Below are positions 8,173 to 64,000 of a stretch of DNA of 64,000 bases, one piece after another; position 1 is the stretch's first letter, and every line of letters starts with the position of its first letter. The DNA lies in the IMG/VR virus record IMGVR_UViG_3300047362_000477, positions 1 to 64,000 of that record; one strand, given 5' to 3'. The DNA comes from a virus. Position numbers and translations under genes: made by a program. A model generated the notes under the pieces. It did not search any database. It was not told where the DNA came from and was given only the letters and a program-made list of their open reading frames with translations.

Positions 8173-8766
8173 ATGATCACATTGATCGATGTTATCAAAC
8201 ACCCTGAATACCAAGACAGTCTATTAGACTTTGTTTTTCGTATTGAGGATGATGTTCATCATAACAAAAATAATTATAAAGATTTTGAAAATCGTCTTAA
8301 AGAGTATTCCAGTTTTACAATACTCTTAGACGATGATCAAACTTTATTAGCTATGAGCGGACTATATAGAGTTGATAGCTGGCCTAAACACGTGGCAAGA
8401 GGATTGGATAGGACCTATTACTTTAATTGGCCAGAAGTAAAAAGTGGATTCAATATGCAAAGAAAATATGCAAGTCAATATATGTGGCCGTATCAAGTTA
8501 AACGTGCAGAAGAACTTGGATATAGAGGTGTGTTTGTAAGTATTCAAAAAAACAGAAGAGCATTTACTGACTTTGTTGGAAACATAAAAGAATTTCAACC
8601 TAGCATACTGCCAGGTTATTATAATACTTGTCATGTACATGATGAGGTTATCAATTCAGCACAAACCTGTTGGCAAAACCTAGCAATATATAAAATGAAA
8701 CCTTTTACTAGTTTAGATATGCCAAATATCAGCGAAGAAGAATATAAAAAGAGATATAAAAAATGA
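8173..8766 (+). CDS. GNAT-like protein
   Basis: A 197-residue protein. FTILLDDDQTLLAMSGLYRV followed by RGLDRTYYFNWPEV gives the strand pair of GNAT acyltransferases, and RAEELGYRGVFVSIQKNRRAF resembles the later helix-strand segment. It shares its layout with the - strand protein at 7261-7773. Its end overlaps the start of the radical SAM gene (ATGA type), so the two are coupled. A role in acylating the product of that enzyme is possible but unproven. Confidence 0.5.
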   Translation: MITLIDVIKHPEYQDSLLDFVFRIEDDVHHNKNNYKDFENRLKEYSSFTILLDDDQTLLAMSGLYRVDSWPKHVARGLDRTYYFNWPEVKSGFNMQRKYASQYMWPYQVKRAEELGYRGVFVSIQKNRRAFTDFVGNIKEFQPSILPGYYNTCHVHDEVINSAQTCWQNLAIYKMKPFTSLDMPNISEEEYKKRYKK

Positions 8767-9689
8767 TACAAGGATACTACGAACAAGAACCAGAAAATAA
8801 TACATTTCAAGATGTAATTATTGACGTTACTCATAGATGCAATATGACTTGTAAAAATTGTTACATTCCTAATAGAAATATTCCTGATATGAATATGGAA
8901 AAGATGTTAGAAACAATTAGTAAGTTTCCAAAACGTACAATGATTAGAATAATAGGTGCAGAACCTACTATGAGAAAAGATCTACCTGAAATGATTCAAC
9001 GTATTAGAAAAACAGGTAACAGATGTACATTGTTAACAAATGGTTTACGTCTTGCAAAAGATAGTTATGTAAAAACTCTAAAACAACATGGTCTTAGACA
9101 TTGTTATATTAGTATGAATGGAGCAGATAATGATGATTGGTACGAAGCTATTGATGAATTAAGATGTGCTACAAAGAAAGTTCAAGCATTAAAAAACTTA
9201 TCAAATAATAAGTTTATTATTGACACAGGAACTATTATTGTAAAAGGTATAAACGATTCTGCTATTGAACGTATGTTGTACGTATTTAATAATAATGGCA
9301 TAGATAACGCAGTATGTCGTATTAAAAATGTTGGTGACATAGGTCGTAGCATGACTGACAATGACGATGGTAACTATACATTACCAGGTTTGGTTAAACT
9401 GTTTGCTGAACAAACTAAACTATCAGAAGACTATATCTATAGCTGGAGAAATAAACCAATATATCAAAACGATGCACCAGAAGTAGATAGTTTTATGTTT
9501 CCTATGGATCCTAAAGCAGAAGGTAAATTTATGCATAAAAGTGGAATATGGTTTAAGATTGCCAACTGGAAAGGTGAAGAAGGACAAAGCATACCATTAC
9601 GTAATAATACACGTAGAGGAAGGCTTACACCAAATTGGAAAGTAGCTCCATTCTTTGAACACGTAAAAATGAACGAAGGTGGATACTAA
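8763..9689 (+). CDS. radical SAM enzyme
   Basis: A 308-residue protein. DVTHRCNMTCKNCYIPNR gives the CX3CX2C cluster motif (Cys26, Cys30, Cys33) that binds the [4Fe-4S] cluster and SAM. IIGAEPTMRKDLPEM stands where GGEP is usual (GAEP, a conservative change), and TLLTNGLRL is the next conserved strand. It lacks a clear Cys-rich C-terminal SPASM domain. Unlike the - strand island enzymes, it has no N-terminal Cys module. The QueD-like gene downstream raises a queuosine-type role, but the motif spacing is MoaA/SPASM-like rather than diagnostic of QueE. Confidence 0.85.
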   Translation: MIQGYYEQEPENNTFQDVIIDVTHRCNMTCKNCYIPNRNIPDMNMEKMLETISKFPKRTMIRIIGAEPTMRKDLPEMIQRIRKTGNRCTLLTNGLRLAKDSYVKTLKQHGLRHCYISMNGADNDDWYEAIDELRCATKKVQALKNLSNNKFIIDTGTIIVKGINDSAIERMLYVFNNNGIDNAVCRIKNVGDIGRSMTDNDDGNYTLPGLVKLFAEQTKLSEDYIYSWRNKPIYQNDAPEVDSFMFPMDPKAEGKFMHKSGIWFKIANWKGEEGQSIPLRNNTRRGRLTPNWKVAPFFEHVKMNEGGY

Positions 9690-10461: not shown

Positions 10462-11338
10462 ACTAGCATTCTTTGGAACCAGCCATACGTATGGTGATTG
10501 TGCAGAAGGTATTTCGCACAATAATGGTCAAAAGAAATTTGTAAAGACACCTTGGCCAGAGCTATTTGCTAAACACTTAAACAAAGAATTTTATAATTTT
10601 GGTATAGGTGGTTCTGATAATCAGACTATGTTAGATGCTATACTAGAAGCATTTAGTAGAGGCACAATGGATGAAGTTGATACATTAATACTTGAACCAA
10701 GATTGTCTTATGATGCTATTAGATTACCATATGATTATATAGGGTATAAACCTAAAGCTAATTCTGAATATGGTCGAAACGAGTACACAACACATTGGCT
10801 TGATACAGGAAGGCATACACAAGAACATAATTGGCCAGATACATATCCACGTACAGAAGAGCTTTGGGTTAGATTTGCATTAAATGATTTAAAGGATGAA
10901 GCACGGTTTAGAAGAAGAATGAATGCAGATTATCTTGGAAACATACATGATAGAGATTTAGAAGATAAAGATATAAAAAAGTTTGTAGAGCTGTCAAAAT
11001 TATATGTAAGTAATTCTCATTATTTAGATTATTTAAATTTTCAGTTTCTTAAAAATGTATATACAATATGTAAAGGGTATGGTATAAAGTTTTACTGGTT
11101 AAATTTTGAATCAAATAGATTTCAGAAATTTTTTACAGATGAAAGAGAAGTATATTGGGAAAATGAGCAACAGTTATTAGACTTATGTATAAACCCTAAA
11201 CAGATTGTTAGAAATTATATTAAAGAAGCAAAACTTGCACAAGACACGGAATGTTCATGTGGACATTTTAACGACTATGCACAACCATACATAAGTGCAT
11301 ACTTATTAAAAGGATATAATGAAAGAAAAAATAGTTAA
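10445..11338 (+). CDS. SGNH-hydrolase-like protein
   Basis: A 297-residue protein starting at a TTG that overlaps the QueD-like gene by 17 bases; no ATG is suitably placed before the conserved block. LAFFGTSHTYGD (7-18) is a GDSx-like nucleophile block with Ser13. NFGIGGSDNQTM fits the Gly/Asn block, and CSCGHFNDYAQPY near the end holds a candidate catalytic His. It is longer and more divergent than the SGNH-like protein at 3426. Activity is inferred from these blocks only. Its end overlaps the SufT-like gene by 20 bases. Confidence 0.55.
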   Translation: MSHRNKLAFFGTSHTYGDCAEGISHNNGQKKFVKTPWPELFAKHLNKEFYNFGIGGSDNQTMLDAILEAFSRGTMDEVDTLILEPRLSYDAIRLPYDYIGYKPKANSEYGRNEYTTHWLDTGRHTQEHNWPDTYPRTEELWVRFALNDLKDEARFRRRMNADYLGNIHDRDLEDKDIKKFVELSKLYVSNSHYLDYLNFQFLKNVYTICKGYGIKFYWLNFESNRFQKFFTDEREVYWENEQQLLDLCINPKQIVRNYIKEAKLAQDTECSCGHFNDYAQPYISAYLLKGYNERKNS

Positions 11339-11609
11339 CAACCTAAAAGAAGTGTTTGACCCAGAGATGAGTATAAACGTGTATGACTTAGGTTTAATAT
11401 ATGAGATAAATATTAATGAAGCACACGTTGATATAGTAATGACATTAACTAGTGCATTCTGTCCAGCCGCAGATGAAATTATTGCAGATGTTCATAACGC
11501 AGTCACCAAAGTAGAAGGTGTAGAAACGTGTGATGTAAAAGTTACATTTGATCCTCCATTTGGTCCGGACAAGATGTCAGAAGATGCTAGACTAATATTA
11601 GGCATTTAA
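11319..11609 (+). CDS. sufT: SufT/MIP18-family Fe-S assembly protein
   Basis: A 96-residue protein of the MIP18 (DUF59) family. FDPEMSINVYDLGLIYEI (13-30), the strand VDIVMTLTSAFCPAADEI with the conserved Cys near residue 47, and VKVTFDPPFGPDKMS are the family hallmarks. Bacterial SufT and eukaryotic MIP18 help deliver Fe-S clusters to target proteins. It is the first of five Fe-S-related genes in this stretch, which matches the many radical SAM enzymes encoded elsewhere in the window. Normal length for a single-domain member. Confidence 0.85.
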   Translation: MKEKIVNNLKEVFDPEMSINVYDLGLIYEININEAHVDIVMTLTSAFCPAADEIIADVHNAVTKVEGVETCDVKVTFDPPFGPDKMSEDARLILGI

Positions 11610-11625
11610 AAATTAAGGGGACGAA

Positions 11626-11979
11626 ATGACTTACTTGGTCACAGAAAATTGCATCAAGTGTAAACATATGGATTGCGTAGAAGTATGTCCAGTTGATTGT
11701 TTTTATGAAGGAGATAACTTTTTAGCGATCAATCCAGATGAATGTATTGATTGTGGAGTATGTGAACCTGAATGTCCAGCTGATGCTATTGTTGCAGATA
11801 TTGCATTAGATCCAGGAGAGCTAGATTATTGGACAAAGGTTAATACTGAGATGGCTGAAAAGTGGCCAAACATAACAGTAGCTCGTCCACATGATAAACC
11901 ACCTGATTGGGAAGAATGGGACGGTAAACCAAATAAGAGAGAACTATTATCAGAAGAACCAGGAAAGGGCGATGAATAA
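11626..11979 (+). CDS. fdxA: seven-iron ferredoxin (FdxA type)
   Basis: A 117-residue protein very close to bacterial FdxA. It has Cys9, 12, 17, 21, 25, 40, 43, 46 and 50 in the [18 protein letters not shown] and [12 protein letters not shown] arrangement. In FdxA three of these hold a [3Fe-4S] cluster and four a [4Fe-4S] cluster. The tail ([10 protein letters not shown], then DWEEWDGKP) is also FdxA-like. It can pass single electrons, which radical SAM enzymes need to cleave SAM. The acidic Glu-rich C-terminus extends a little past the usual end. A GGGG-type site precedes the ATG. Confidence 0.92.
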
Positions 11980-12549
11980 ATGATACAAACAGAACCGACA
12001 CCAAATCCAAATGCATTAAAGTTCATGCCATTGCGTGATGTAAGAGGTAATAAAGGACCATTGCATTATAAAAAAGATTCAGATAAAAATCCTAAAGAAG
12101 AATCAGATATAGCTAATTCTTTATTTGGAATAAAAGGTATTAAAGATGTATTTTTTGGTTCTGACTTTATTACTATTGGTAAAGAAGATATTGTAGAATG
12201 GGAAGAGATTAAAGAACCAATCATATTTCTTATAGAAGCCAATAGTGGGTTACCGTTTGTAAAAGAAAAAATTAAACCAGCCTGTGATACAATTAATAGT
12301 GATGCAGGTGAAAGTAAAGTTATCAAAACAATAAAAAAATTATTAGATGAAAGAGTAAGACCTGCTGTCGCAATGGATGGCGGCGATATACTATTTCACG
12401 GATATCACGAAGGTATTGTAAAATTAGAAATGTATGGTGCTTGTAGTGGTTGTCCTAGCTCATCAGCAACTTTAAAGATGGGTGTTGAAAATATGCTGAA
12501 GCATTATATTCCGGAAGTACGAAAGGTAGAGCAAGTATATGAGAACTAA
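11980..12549 (+). CDS. nfu: Nfu-type Fe-S scaffold/carrier
   Basis: A 189-residue protein with two domains. The Nfu N-terminal domain covers about 1-95 (TEPTPNPNALKFMP at the start is typical). The NifU C-terminal domain covers about 115-189, with CSGCPSS carrying the cluster-binding Cys155 and Cys158. Nfu proteins dimerise around a [4Fe-4S] cluster and give it to enzymes such as lipoyl synthase, itself a radical SAM enzyme. It starts directly after the ferredoxin stop and overlaps the next Nfu-like gene by 11 bases. Confidence 0.9.
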   Translation: MIQTEPTPNPNALKFMPLRDVRGNKGPLHYKKDSDKNPKEESDIANSLFGIKGIKDVFFGSDFITIGKEDIVEWEEIKEPIIFLIEANSGLPFVKEKIKPACDTINSDAGESKVIKTIKKLLDERVRPAVAMDGGDILFHGYHEGIVKLEMYGACSGCPSSSATLKMGVENMLKHYIPEVRKVEQVYEN

Positions 12550-12895
12550 AGAAGAAATACTAAAACACATTGAAGAAGTTATGAAAGAATATGTTGATCC
12601 AAACGTAGCACAACATGGTGGTAAAGTTAATGTTATTGATTTTGATATGGAATCAGGAACATTACATTTACAAATGAGTGGCTCTTGTAGTGGGTGTGCT
12701 GGTAGTACACAAACATTATCATATGGAGTAGAGCAAACATTAACACATTTTGTAGAAGAAGTAAAAGCTATTACTAGTGAAGATGATGCTATGTATAGTG
12801 ATCCATATTATGTTTCAGATCCAATGAGTATGTATGATTATTCAGAACCTGATCCAGGCTTAGACTTGGAAGAAGGCGAGAGTGATGGCAGTTAA
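12539..12895 (+). CDS. second NifU C-terminal-domain protein
   Basis: A 118-residue protein with a NifU C-terminal domain: NVAQHGGKVNVIDFD (22-36) and MSGSCSGCAGSTQTL (46-60), with Cys50 and Cys53. An acidic tail follows from about residue 83. It lacks the N-terminal domain of its neighbour, so the phage carries a full-length and a short Nfu side by side. The two may form mixed dimers or serve different targets. It overlaps both neighbours. Confidence 0.88.
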   Translation: MRTKEEILKHIEEVMKEYVDPNVAQHGGKVNVIDFDMESGTLHLQMSGSCSGCAGSTQTLSYGVEQTLTHFVEEVKAITSEDDAMYSDPYYVSDPMSMYDYSEPDPGLDLEEGESDGS

Positions 12896-13223
12896 AGTTT
12901 TTTTTATTGCAAAGATAAAAGACTTTAATGATGAATATAAAGACTATGTTAGCCGTGTACGTGACTTAGGTGAAGCACACGATGGTTTTATTAGTTTAGA
13001 AAATGTAGAAATAGGTGATATAGAAATCACTGTTACTACTTGGCGTAGCAAAGAAGATGTTGCTGAATGGGCAAAAGATCCTGTTCATGTATCAGCAAAG
13101 AAAAAAGCTATGCAATGGTATCATTGGGTAAGAGGTTATCATGTAGAAACACCAGACCCAGGACCTACTATGAAAAAAGAATTTATGAAGAGCGAACCAA
13201 AAGATGGAAAAGATAAAAGTTAA
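12885..13223 (+). CDS. ABM-domain (dimeric alpha-beta barrel) protein
   Basis: A 112-residue protein resembling the antibiotic biosynthesis monooxygenase fold: VKVFFIAKIKDFNDEYKDYVSRV, then FISLENVEIGDIEITVTTWRSKEDVAEWAKDP, then HVSAKKKAMQWY. Relatives are small cofactor-independent oxygenases or simply dimeric binding proteins. A GTG lies one codon earlier, but the ATG is preferred. It overlaps the previous stop by 11 bases. Its role in an Fe-S cluster context is unknown. Confidence 0.6.
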   Translation: MAVKVFFIAKIKDFNDEYKDYVSRVRDLGEAHDGFISLENVEIGDIEITVTTWRSKEDVAEWAKDPVHVSAKKKAMQWYHWVRGYHVETPDPGPTMKKEFMKSEPKDGKDKS

Positions 13224-13374
13224 TACAGACGAAGCTGATCAATTCGGAATATCTGACAGAGAACTTATTAAAACATTATATAGAAAAATACTTATGTTGG
13301 AAGACCGTATTGTTAATTTAGAAGTTGATAACGAAGCTCATGAAGAGTGGATGAAAAATAGAGAAAATAAATGA
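13204..13374 (+). CDS. small coiled-coil protein
   Basis: A 56-residue charged protein whose ATG lies inside the end of the ABM gene and whose TGA overlaps the next ATG. The second half (MLEDRIVNLEVDNEAHEEW) has heptad spacing and should form a coiled coil. Function unknown; the exact overlaps support it as a gene. Confidence 0.55.
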   Translation: MEKIKVNTDEADQFGISDRELIKTLYRKILMLEDRIVNLEVDNEAHEEWMKNRENK

Positions 13375-13892
13375 TTAGAAATTTAAAAAAGTATATTAGA
13401 ACAGTTCCTGATTATCCTGTAAAAGGTGTTAACTTTTATGATTTAAATAGTTTATTTGCTAGTGATCTATGGCATCCATTGGTTACTGAAATGGCTAATA
13501 TGGATTTTGAACAAATACCAACACACATTTTAGGAATTGAAAGTAGAGGCTTTGTATTAGGGTCAGCAATAGCTCATGAATTATGTTTGCCATTTGTAAT
13601 GGTTCGTAAAAAAGGTGCTAAATACCCAGGTAAGCTATTAGAAGAATCTTATGAGTTAGAGTATGGAACTGATACACTAACATTACAAGAAGGTATACTA
13701 GGGCATACTAGTAGAGTATTAATTGCAGATGACTTAATTGCCACTGGCGGTAGCATGATTGCTACAAAAAAGTTAGTAGAACAGACTGGTGCAATAGTTG
13801 AAGGTGCTATTACGATTGTTAATTTAAAATATCTTAACAAATCAGAATTAAGCAACATAGATATAAGTTCTGCATTGGAGATAGATAAATGA
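13371..13892 (+). CDS. apt: adenine phosphoribosyltransferase
   Basis: A 173-residue protein, normal length for the family. IRTVPDYPVKGVNFYD at the start, GIESRGFVLGSAIAHEL in the middle and the PRPP-binding motif VLIADDLIATGGS (116-128) are characteristic. APRT joins adenine and PRPP to make AMP and pyrophosphate. Its PRPP could come from the synthetase at 17395. Its adenine could come from the nucleosidase-like protein at 52376, which may cleave the 5'-deoxyadenosine and SAH left by SAM-dependent enzymes. It sits between Fe-S genes and overlaps the A-type carrier by 4 bases. Confidence 0.93.
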   Translation: MIRNLKKYIRTVPDYPVKGVNFYDLNSLFASDLWHPLVTEMANMDFEQIPTHILGIESRGFVLGSAIAHELCLPFVMVRKKGAKYPGKLLEESYELEYGTDTLTLQEGILGHTSRVLIADDLIATGGSMIATKKLVEQTGAIVEGAITIVNLKYLNKSELSNIDISSALEIDK

Positions 13893-14269
13893 TAAAAGTA
13901 ACAGATACCGCATCTGAACATTTAAAAAATATAAGTGAAGCTAATGATGGCAAAATTCCTTGCCTAGGATTAAAGGGAGGCGGGTGTGCAGGATTTAGTT
14001 ATGATTGGACACTAAAAGAAGAATCAGAACTTGACAAAAAATCTGATCATGTTATAATAATGGATAACGGTGCAAAGATGGCTGTTGATGGAACTAGTAT
14101 TATGTACTTGATTGGTACTACTCTAGAATTAAAAAGAGACACCTTTGGTACTACACTTGAGATAGTTAATCCTAATTCACAAAGTTCATGTGGATGTGGT
14201 GAAAGTGTAAACTTTAATATGGAAAAAATTGAAGCCAATCAAGATCAAATTACACAATTAAAAGGATAA
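13889..14269 (+). CDS. A-type Fe-S carrier (IscA/ErpA/SufA family)
   Basis: A 126-residue protein with the three conserved Cys of the family: Cys33 in GGGCAGFSY, and Cys101 and Cys103 in SSCGCGES. Length is near the usual 105-120 plus a short charged tail. A-type carriers take clusters from the scaffold and pass them to [4Fe-4S] enzymes, ErpA and IscA being needed for many of these in bacteria. With SufT, two Nfu proteins and FdxA it makes five Fe-S genes in 3 kb. I cannot tell IscA from ErpA by eye. Confidence 0.92.
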   Translation: MIKVTDTASEHLKNISEANDGKIPCLGLKGGGCAGFSYDWTLKEESELDKKSDHVIIMDNGAKMAVDGTSIMYLIGTTLELKRDTFGTTLEIVNPNSQSSCGCGESVNFNMEKIEANQDQITQLKG

Positions 14270-22043: not shown

Positions 22044-22266
22044 CTTAAAGTACATAGGAAAATATGTTGCATATCAGCTATGCGGTTATGTAAAAGAAAT
22101 AACACCAATAGTAAACAAATACAATCCAGAAAAAATAGTAATTACAGGCAACTGTAAGCACGATTCAATAGATTCGTACACACCAGATACGTTTCTAACA
22201 CTATATATCCTGCTTAATAAGGAGCAGGCTATGCTTTTTCGTTTATCTAATAATTTAGATAAATAA
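22021..22266 (+). CDS. hypothetical protein
   Basis: An 81-residue protein overlapping the previous gene by 23 bases. Residues 1-45 look like an alpha/beta unit (YIGKYVAYQLCGYVKEITPIV, then IVITGNC). No family recognised. Its final codons carry GATAAATA, a late-promoter-like motif, in front of the proton-channel genes. Confidence 0.5.
   Translation: MALKIETNLKYIGKYVAYQLCGYVKEITPIVNKYNPEKIVITGNCKHDSIDSYTPDTFLTLYILLNKEQAMLFRLSNNLDK
22258..22265 (+). promoter_or_regulatory. GATAAATA late-promoter-like motif
   Basis: GATAAATA lies 21 bases before the ATG of the ExbB-like gene. T4 late promoters need only TATAAATA about 10 bases before the start of RNA, and this fits such a place. No TTGACA is near. 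One of several such motifs at heads of transcription units. Confidence 0.45.
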
Positions 22267-22285: not shown

Positions 22286-22726
22286 ATGACACAAAAATTC
22301 TTAATCTGGTGGTTGGTTGCAGTAGTGCAAGTAATCGCAGTAGGTATTTCTATTTTCTATGGAATAATACCTTTCTTAATTGAAAATGACGTAACAAAGT
22401 TAAGCTTCGTAATATTTACGATGTGGTTTTTTTCAACTGCATCTATTGGATATAAGATTTACAATAACGAAGACGACTTTGATAAACCATGGTTTGTAGC
22501 TGAGTCATGCATGACTGTAGGTATGATTGGTACTGTTATTGGATTTATGTTTATGTTGGGCAGTAGCTTTCAACAAATTGATCCAAGTAATATAGAAAGT
22601 ATGAGACAGGTTATAGTTGACATGGCTTCTGGAATGAGTACTGCCTTGCTTACAACTTTATGTGGACTAATTGCTGGCCTATTTATTAAAGTACAGATTG
22701 TAATGCAAGAGCAAGAAGATGTCTAA
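22286..22726 (+). CDS. MotA/TolQ/ExbB-type proton channel protein
   Basis: A 146-residue membrane protein with four likely helices (about 5-28, 38-57, 76-93, 117-135). VGMIGTVIGFMFMLGSS (78-94) and MASGMSTALLTTLCGLIAGL (113-132) match the two conserved channel helices of the MotA/TolQ/ExbB family. In bacteria these form a ring around MotB, TolR or ExbD and turn proton flow into mechanical work. It is short: the cytoplasmic loop and tail of ExbB are trimmed. It is followed by an 8-base overlap with an ExbD-like gene, so the pair mirrors the bacterial gene order. Confidence 0.8.
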   Translation: MTQKFLIWWLVAVVQVIAVGISIFYGIIPFLIENDVTKLSFVIFTMWFFSTASIGYKIYNNEDDFDKPWFVAESCMTVGMIGTVIGFMFMLGSSFQQIDPSNIESMRQVIVDMASGMSTALLTTLCGLIAGLFIKVQIVMQEQEDV

Positions 22727-23330
22727 AAAATCAAAAAGAACAATAATTGGTTCAAATTTAGCCTTCAATGATTTATTGTTCAACGTTCTTGTTGGATTTG
22801 TAATGCTATTTGTAATAGCATTTCTTCTTATTAACCCCATAACAAAGAAAAGCGACATACCAAACAAAGCTGAATTTTTAATTGTATTAACTTGGCCATC
22901 AACTGCGGCAGATGATGTTGACTTATGGGTACAACGTGATTCATCAAAACCTGTTGGATTTAGTAATAGAGAATTAACACCATTACATTTAGATAGAGAT
23001 GATTTAGGTAGAACAAATGATAAAGTAATAATAAATGGAGTTGAAAAAGTAATTCAAACTAATAGAGAAACAATTACAATAAGAGGTATTGTTCCTGGTG
23101 ATTATTTTGTAGGAGTTCATTATTATAGTAGAACAACTACTTTGGAACCTTTACCTTATACAGTTACCGTAATGAAAGTTAATCCATATAGAGAATTATA
23201 TTCTATATCCGGTGAACTAAACACAAAAAGAGAAAAACAAAGGTTACCAGCTTTTACAGTAGATAAATTAGGTAACGTTGAAGAAATATTTACACACTAT
23301 AGAGATATAGTTCCGGAGACAGGCGGTTAA
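22719..23330 (+). CDS. ExbD/TolR/MotB-like partner with periplasmic beta domain
   Basis: A 203-residue protein. A basic cytoplasmic start is followed by NLAFNDLLFNVLVGFVMLFVI, in which Asp18 at the head of a single membrane helix (19-39) matches the proton-carrying Asp of ExbD, TolR and MotB. The outer part is not an ExbD or OmpA-like domain. It is beta-rich, with a DVDLWV segment (66-71) and a late strand pair, resembling YfaP-type DVDLWV domains. It therefore looks like a motor stator fused to an unusual envelope-facing domain. Confidence 0.75.
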   Translation: MSKKSKRTIIGSNLAFNDLLFNVLVGFVMLFVIAFLLINPITKKSDIPNKAEFLIVLTWPSTAADDVDLWVQRDSSKPVGFSNRELTPLHLDRDDLGRTNDKVIINGVEKVIQTNRETITIRGIVPGDYFVGVHYYSRTTTLEPLPYTVTVMKVNPYRELYSISGELNTKREKQRLPAFTVDKLGNVEEIFTHYRDIVPETGG

Positions 23331-23331
23331 T

Positions 23332-23886
23332 ATGATTTACATAGCATCAATTTTATTATTTTTATTAGCGGTAATATCTGTATATGCTCTTATAAAATCT
23401 AAGAGTAATTTAGTAGCACTATTTTTCTTAATTCCAATTATATTAAGTTCTAGTATTTACACTGGTTATTCAATATATGTTTTACAAGGAACACCAATTA
23501 ATGGATTGCCAGAAGGTAAAGTAGAACTAATATGGGCAGAAATGCAAAAGCCAGATATAGTATTCTTAGTTAGACATGAAAATACTCCTACACCAAAATA
23601 TTACAGAATTCCATATACTAAAGAAAATGCAAAATTGCTATCAGGATTAAACCAACAAGCATCTCAAGGGCGTCCACAAGAAGGCGAATTTAAACCTAAA
23701 GAAAATAGTGGAACTAGAATAGAAAACCAAGATGTCTCGTTTGACAGAATTAAGCGAGAACCACTGCCCCCAAAGAAAAACGCCCTTAAACTACAGGGCG
23801 TTGATCAAGGAATCATAAATAGCATTGATAACAATAATGGTTTTGTCAGAGGCGAAGCACCATTAAGTTACAATTCACCTAGATGA
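23332..23886 (+). CDS. third membrane protein of the proton-channel cassette
   Basis: A 184-residue protein. Two membrane helices (about 2-20 and 27-50) precede a segment likely outside the inner membrane (KVELIWAEMQKPDIVFLVRH) and a Pro/Lys/Asn-rich disordered tail from about residue 110. It begins one base after the ExbD-like stop and overlaps the ClpP-like gene by 4 bases. No family is recognised. By position it is probably a third component of the same envelope machine. Confidence 0.6.
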   Translation: MIYIASILLFLLAVISVYALIKSKSNLVALFFLIPIILSSSIYTGYSIYVLQGTPINGLPEGKVELIWAEMQKPDIVFLVRHENTPTPKYYRIPYTKENAKLLSGLNQQASQGRPQEGEFKPKENSGTRIENQDVSFDRIKREPLPPKKNALKLQGVDQGIINSIDNNNGFVRGEAPLSYNSPR

Positions 23887-63274: not shown

Positions 63275-64000
63275 TTATCGTGCTATTTGTGCGATTGATT
63301 TAACGATTTTTGAGTGATCAAACTCGGTTAGTGCAATTTTTAGTGAAATTAGCTCTTCTCCTCGTTTAACTGTTACATCCCATACGTCACCTGGAAATGC
63401 TTGTAAAGTAAGTTTCATAACTCCGAAACTATTCTCTATTCTTTTACCATTTATTTCTATCAAAATATCACCTTGTAGTAATCCAGCCAATTCACCTACT
63501 GTTTTCTTTGGTGCTTCTTTACCTTCTTCTACTTCAGGATAATTTATGTACGCCATGTGTCTTTCGTCTTTTGGTATATCTTTAACATCTTGTATTTCAA
63601 AAGTGCCCATACTAAAAGGAAGCTCTGCATAAGGTACATATCCTTTAGATTTATAATGAGGGCTCATTATATATTCGTATGATCTTAATGCTTGATCTGC
63701 GGATATTGCTACTCCTACTCCATCCCAACCAGGGATTTGTCTACCTGGACTGTATATAGCCTGTGCTACACCAACTATATTACCTTCTAAATTTAATATA
63801 GGTCCGCCACTATTTCCTTGATTAATTACTGCATCAGTTTGAATCATTAATGCATATGGTCTTAAACCATATCGTTGTGAATGTGTAATATGTCCTTGTG
63901 TTGTTGTCCAAGGCATACCCATTCCGTGTCCTATAATAACTACAGGATCACCAGTATTGTAATCATCAGTATCAGCAAACTTTAAAGTTTTCCAATGTTC
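63275..64000 (-). CDS. HtrA/DegP-type serine protease with PDZ domain, cut by the window edge
   Basis: The frame is open to the end of the window (242 codons seen), so the N-terminus with signal and catalytic His is missing. Visible parts are FADTDDYNTGDPVVIIGHG, the serine block VINQGNSGGPILNLEGNIVGVAQ and a C-terminal PDZ domain (AGLLQGDILIEINGKRIENSFGVMKLTLQAFPGDVWDVTVKRG). HtrA proteases degrade or refold envelope proteins in bacteria. Next to the lipoprotein above, it suggests that the phage manages the host envelope. The first ATG inside the window (63922) is internal, not the start. Confidence 0.85.
   Translation of the reverse strand, partial: EHWKTLKFADTDDYNTGDPVVIIGHGMGMPWTTTQGHITHSQRYGLRPYALMIQTDAVINQGNSGGPILNLEGNIVGVAQAIYSPGRQIPGWDGVGVAISADQALRSYEYIMSPHYKSKGYVPYAELPFSMGTFEIQDVKDIPKDERHMAYINYPEVEEGKEAPKKTVGELAGLLQGDILIEINGKRIENSFGVMKLTLQAFPGDVWDVTVKRGEELISLKIALTEFDHSKIVKSIAQIAR

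Follow-up and report, generated by a model that had tools for sequence, protein, structure and literature searches.

An ExbB/MotA-type gene trio of tailed phages and proteobacterial chromosomes, possibly co-opted for host lysis

Ion-driven 5:2 motors are known in motility, import, division and defence, and the locus described here raises the question of whether three consecutive phage genes (A, B and C) encode such a motor and what it would do for a phage. The window, meaning the whole stretch of DNA analyzed (64 kb out of a 99.5-kb virus record; GC 33%), comes from a large tailed phage; the nearest relatives of its clamp-loader gene were found in the PA5oct-type Pseudomonas jumbo phages (52.8%), followed by Agrobacterium/Sinorhizobium jumbo phages. 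The ABC ORFs have the clamp-loader genes on one side and a ClpP-like gene on the other, and the positions and features originally assigned to them were correct (Table 1). A and B overlap by 8 nt, C starts one base past the B stop codon, and C and the ClpP-like gene overlap by 4 nt. The original prediction that the order and overlaps mirror those of ExbBD/TolQR was borne out for A followed by B, but not for the B-C junction, which is a one-base gap.

Table 1. Position of the three genes and of the putative promoter element in the window.
Feature	Coordinates	Strand	Description
Late-promoter core GATAAATA (T4-type, NATAAATA)	22258..22265	+	28 bp upstream of gene A
Gene A, 146 aa	22286..22726	+	Minimal MotA/TolQ/ExbB-family channel subunit, four TM segments
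Gene B, 203 aa	22719..23330	+	Single TM, Asp18; periplasmic W-x6-DDVDLWV...LDRDDLG...N domain, putatively beta-type
Gene C, 184 aa	23332..23886	+	Two TM helices, positive cytoplasmic loop, long tail

The product of gene A matched the Pfam family MotA_ExbB (PF01618) over TM3-TM4 (E = 1.2e-7), with 32 bits against a curated cut-off of 22.9; the corresponding scores were 27.2 bits for the phage of locus L053 and 34-35.7 bits for bacterial copies. The A homologue of phage 16-3 (p038) had no Pfam match, yet it aligned with the A family. A search of the PDB sequences with the A profile retrieved MotA, ZorA, TolQ, ExbB and PomA. Four hydrophobic segments were detected, of which the third and fourth are the conserved channel pair, with the channel-helix motifs GxxGTxxG and A-x-x-T-x-x-G and the Thr ring. 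Thr124, Gly79, Gly82 and Gly127 were each found in every sequence of the non-redundant alignment (50/50) and Thr83 in nearly all (47/50), Asp35 being invariant too. The claim that A carries both MotA/TolQ/ExbB channel helices was thus supported, and on sequence grounds its assignment to this family is firm.

As predicted, Asp18 heads the sole TM helix of B (residues 19-37), and it was present in all the members of the non-redundant alignment (49/49); a single N-terminal TM segment with a conserved Asp near its cytoplasmic end is a feature of ExbD, TolR and MotB. The N-terminus of B carries 4.4 K+R. Residues T145 and T178 of TolQ form an ion path with D23 of TolR (PMC8928145), and, by alignment and motif, Thr83 and Thr124 of A together with Asp18 of B are their apparent equivalents. 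Neither Asp18 nor Thr124, whose loss in homologues would speak against a motor, was missing from any aligned member. We consider the homology of the trio to ion motors highly probable.

The outer part of B had been described as a beta domain different from those of ExbD and OmpA, and the two exclusions held: no ExbD/TolR (PF02472) or OmpA-like domain was detected with Pfam in the 51 B members at E <= 0.1, and the B protein of the window had no match above cut-off in Pfam, NCBIfam or PHROG. The domain may nevertheless weakly resemble DUF2135/PPC-type beta domains. Weak, sub-threshold matches to DUF2135 (PF09906, YfaP) were obtained for 3/51 phage B proteins (best E = 3e-4), and one bacterial B scored 17.8 bits, under the cut-off of 22; a W...DxDLWV...G-x-Y pattern is common to both groups, whereas the LDRDDLGxxN motif and the TM anchor are particular to B. 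A known fold for B or C was not found in the PDB sequence search, no model for either protein exists in NCBIfam, PHROGs or PADLOC, and for C the PHROGs gave only scattered chance matches. Two hydrophobic segments were found in C, in agreement with its description as a two-helix membrane protein with a long tail. The TM1-TM2 loop holds on average 2.3 K+R per protein versus 0.1 D+E, and under the positive-inside rule this would place the tail, and any enzyme fused to it, in the periplasm.

A search with B matched 27 isolated phages, all of them rhizobial. In the eight of these phage regions that were read, B was flanked by unannotated genes corresponding to A and C, and some rhizobial phage trios were interrupted by homing-endonuclease or other genes. 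A single motif retrieved 255 relatives from IMG/VR. Profile searches over 96 fetched loci, a set in which the window is counted twice (W and L009) and one record is an Azospirillum plasmid, detected B in all 96 and A and C in 94 each, the four gaps all lying at contig ends. Another 27 viral contigs, most of them of temperate rhizobial type, were also covered, and 25 carried the trio; of the 27, two were without a detected C and one had C on the opposite side. Altogether, the survey of phages called for by the original prediction gave A-B-C together in about 120 phage loci, and the co-occurrence of the three genes is far above chance. A literature search, limited to published papers, returned no account of a phage-encoded ExbB/MotA-type motor.

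Several features of the phage loci were recorded alongside. GIY-YIG/HNH homing-endonuclease genes lie inside temperate rhizobial ABC operons (L006 4225-4983, L007 4249-4986 and L008 5535-6077), and in L017 B is separated from C by an ORF of 360 aa that looks by eye like a Rieske-type oxygenase. A gene for a trypsin-like, probably periplasmic, protease lies immediately upstream of A in 17 temperate-phage loci, phage 16-3 being present among these as two records; a trypsin/DegP-like serine protease with a NQGNSGGP motif, similar to the gene upstream of A in the temperate phages, was recognized by eye at window positions 63275-63922. No spanin-like or lipoprotein partner recurred as a conserved neighbour in the phage loci, where matches were sporadic, and none of 21 carriers had an Rz-type spanin (PF03245) above cut-off, a weak test given that spanins diverge fast.

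The trio is not a phage invention: the same operon was found in many proteobacterial chromosomes, ruling out a phage-only distribution. The 80 bacterial loci belonged to Azospirillum, Skermanella, Tistrella, Geminicoccaceae, Kiloniellales, Granulosicoccaceae and Chromatiales MAGs, and A, B and C were together in 81/82 loci when two Azospirillum plasmids were included; B was present in 24 of 190 alphaproteobacterial genomes. ABC is an unannotated chromosomal operon of Alpha- and Gammaproteobacteria. Its bacterial surroundings include rodA/pbp2-like, sufBCD, heme synthesis and PQQ dehydrogenase genes. No neighbour beyond ABC recurred in the first bacterial clade, indicating that ABC itself is the functional unit.

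In the B tree, the temperate rhizobial phages were grouped next to the Azospirillum-type clade, and the marine T4-like/jumbo phages next to the marine alphaproteobacterial copies, with weakly supported deep branches. This placement suggests that the operon probably entered phages on two or more occasions; we infer the direction, from bacteria to phages. PQQ-dependent dehydrogenase/quinoprotein-associated genes adjoin ABC in five marine alphaproteobacterial loci (L317, L319, L320, L321 and L323). A DUF3108-like lipoprotein gene directly follows C in other marine bacteria (L314 2662-3357, L316 5358-6068, L318 5252-5944 and L325 943-3785, the last with three tandem copies); this lipoprotein, missing from the phage operons, is a possible outer-membrane partner. 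In another genome, a membrane-type protein of 339 aa is encoded after a distant A-B pair (L326 3234-5773), and this locus may be an outgroup of the ABC family.

The promoter region bears on the time at which the phage genes are used. T4 and the marine T4-like phages have NATAAATA/TATAAATA as their late promoter (PMC2984593), and the motif [AC]TAAATA was found in the 60 bp ahead of gene A in 31/49 non-redundant loci, compared with none before B and one before C. Random 60-mers contained it at a frequency of 1.4% (269/18676; P about 4e-44 versus A), and other genes had it in 48/407 cases (P about 1e-14 versus A). The genes for tail sheath and tail tube in the ABC contigs, used as the late-gene control since gp23 lies within an operon and is uninformative, also carry the motif upstream, and none of the family-B DNA polymerases inspected had it inside 60 bp. 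Some non-structural genes (RNase H, PhoH and Hsp20, by eye) are preceded by it as well, so that it marks late-type transcription and not lysis as such. The motif was not seen before A in the rhizobial phages, temperate or T4-like. For the T4-related carriers, the promoter evidence makes late expression of ABC very probable.

A second line of evidence came from one clade of eight contigs, in which the reading frame of C extends through a full GH24 lysozyme (in one of the eight it runs off the end of the contig). The fused half matched the Pfam family Phage_lysozyme (PF00959) at 1e-47, with an invariant E-x8-D-x5-T catalytic triad, and purifying selection was detected on both the C half and the GH24 half. 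The residue at the junction is always a start codon (ATG in six, GTG in two) preceded by a purine-rich, ribosome-binding-like site, AAGGAG in several, suggesting that translation may yield a free lysozyme as well as the C-lysozyme; from the sequence, the free enzyme may even be the main product and read-through a coupling device. In one fused pair the GH24 halves were 96% identical and the C halves 52%, indicating that recombination exchanged the enzyme half while the junction stayed in frame. The C-terminal half of the fused protein resembles the phage GH24 endolysins (T4 E, P1 Lyz, R21) in being a complete muramidase with the triad, but differs from them in that the enzyme is attached to the end of a motor subunit with two TM helices and retains an internal start at the junction.

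For a linked endolysin, a feature of lysis cassettes, the loci are divided: these eight contigs of one clade have the fused GH24, and most of the others have no linked endolysin. That an endolysin always adjoins ABC was ruled out, GH24 and SleB-type enzymes usually lying elsewhere. The window itself encodes a SleB-type cell wall hydrolase (Hydrolase_2, E = 7e-21; positions 2122-2793, with the SleB-type hydrolase itself at 2362-2781) with an N-terminal hydrophobic segment, 20 kb from ABC, which is likely to be the endolysin of this phage.

Seen at the sequence level, the gene trio, the family of A, the conserved ion residues, the late-type promoter and the intact GH24 fusion are consistent with the following model. 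A would form a membrane channel ring enclosing two B helices, whose Asp18 would carry the ion and face the ring of Thr83 and Thr124; ion flow past Asp18 would move the periplasmic domain of B and the associated C against the wall, the periplasmic domain of C acting on or near it. The operon would have been taken by phages from bacteria, and in the large T4-related phages it would be transcribed late from its own late promoter, so that the proton (or sodium) motive force drives or gates disruption of the wall or outer membrane at lysis; in one clade the endolysin itself would be carried on subunit C. Our preferred reading is that phages adopted a bacterial envelope machine driven by ions, most likely to lyse the host, and we give the role in lysis a probability of about one half; assembly, ion flow, direction of force and the role in lysis are what we infer.

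Envelope changes, uptake, a block to superinfection and lysis had been left as candidates in the original prediction. The endolysin fusion makes lysis the most economical function, and together with the late-promoter placement it favours lysis over a superinfection block or uptake, which we do not offer as proof. The lysis reading is weakened because the fusion, which keeps an internal start codon, is limited to one clade of metagenome contigs and the endolysin is separate elsewhere, because late promoters serve many non-lysis genes, and because the rhizobial temperate and T4-like phages are without the motif before A. The bacterial copies must serve a different, cellular role. A more specific version, in which a bacterial rotary or piston motor was recruited for lysis and the ion gradient powers envelope opening, or restrains it until the gradient collapses, with the endolysin on the third subunit in some phages, is proposed tentatively.

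Among other explanations, a Tol-like phage copy could preserve the envelope, or delay lysis, through a long infection in which the host is redirected. The bacterial copies being ordinary chromosomal operons, some of them in marine Alphaproteobacteria adjoining rodA/pbp2-like genes with the DUF3108-like lipoprotein next, would agree with such a role, although a C fused to an active-looking muramidase fits it poorly and the late promoter argues against it; we regard it as unlikely. The same late promoter, the conserved channel residues and the start site for free lysozyme kept by the fused clade would suit a holin-like ion leak, in which A and B collapse the membrane potential late and trigger release of the endolysin. 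However, the Asp-Thr path and the outer domain of B are constrained as in working motors, an open pore could do without that domain and without C, and the bacterial copies would be toxic, all of which makes a leak improbable.

An energizer of import across the outer membrane, similar to the TonB system and acting in the host or the infected cell, seems as improbable: PQQ or lanthanide import is plausible for the five marine loci beside quinoprotein genes, but no TonB-like transducer or receptor lies beside ABC in the phages or in the other bacterial clade, and late expression and the lysozyme fusion are at odds with uptake. Superinfection exclusion or a Zorya-like defence carried by the phage would draw on the weak ZorA profile matches to A (PADLOC 1.4e-5; ZorA in the PDB) and on ZorAB being a PMF-driven motor (PMC11890865). 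Yet the 146-aa A has no long cytoplasmic ZorA tail, B has no OmpA-like peptidoglycan domain, an effector of the ZorC/D/E type never recurs beside ABC, and the promoter is late, not early; the first three absences led us to reject a Zorya-like defence, and the broader alternative is rather improbable.

Among described systems, ABC is closest to the 5:2 stators MotAB, ExbBD and TolQR, with which it shares the A profile, the single TM segment and Asp of B, the A-then-B overlap and the Thr-Asp path. It differs from them in that A has no large cytoplasmic domain, the outer domain of B is of neither the ExbD/TolR nor the OmpA type, and an extra obligate membrane protein, C, has its own periplasmic domain. 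In contrast with the Ton and Tol systems, no TonB/TolA transducer, TolB/Pal or TonB-dependent receptor recurs at the phage or bacterial loci. Of the relatives of A with a solved structure, ZorA is one of the best, and both Zorya and ABC connect an ion motor with the envelope and with the biology of phages; unlike Zorya, ABC has no long cytoplasmic rod on A and no nuclease/effector genes, and its carrier is often a phage.

The operon is widespread, its outer domain is new and its third subunit is obligate; it adds a subfamily annotated until now just as a generic channel and hypothetical proteins. Its repeated presence in phages, the late promoter and the endolysin fusion allow a direct test of whether membrane energy does work in phage lysis. 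A deletable operon is now named in culturable bacteria (Azospirillum, Tistrella) and in culturable phages (Rhizobium phages such as RHph_N34, and Sinorhizobium phage 16-3, with p038/p040/p042). If the version with a motor recruited for lysis is true, phages would have a means of lysis that the holin/endolysin/spanin scheme does not cover, and Mot, Ton and Tol would be joined by the bacterial operon as a fourth major family of ion motors in the envelope.

Other contents of the window were noted by eye. About a dozen or more radical-SAM/SPASM-like proteins, called from Cys-rich CxxxCxxC or SPASM-type cores, are encoded in a row at 26411-55591 (- strand) and at 8763-9689 (+ strand), a density unusual for a phage. 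Iron-sulphur cluster genes (SufT-like, ferredoxin, Nfu/NifU-like and IscA/ErpA-like) occupy positions 11319-14269, and this block perhaps serves the radical-SAM enzymes.
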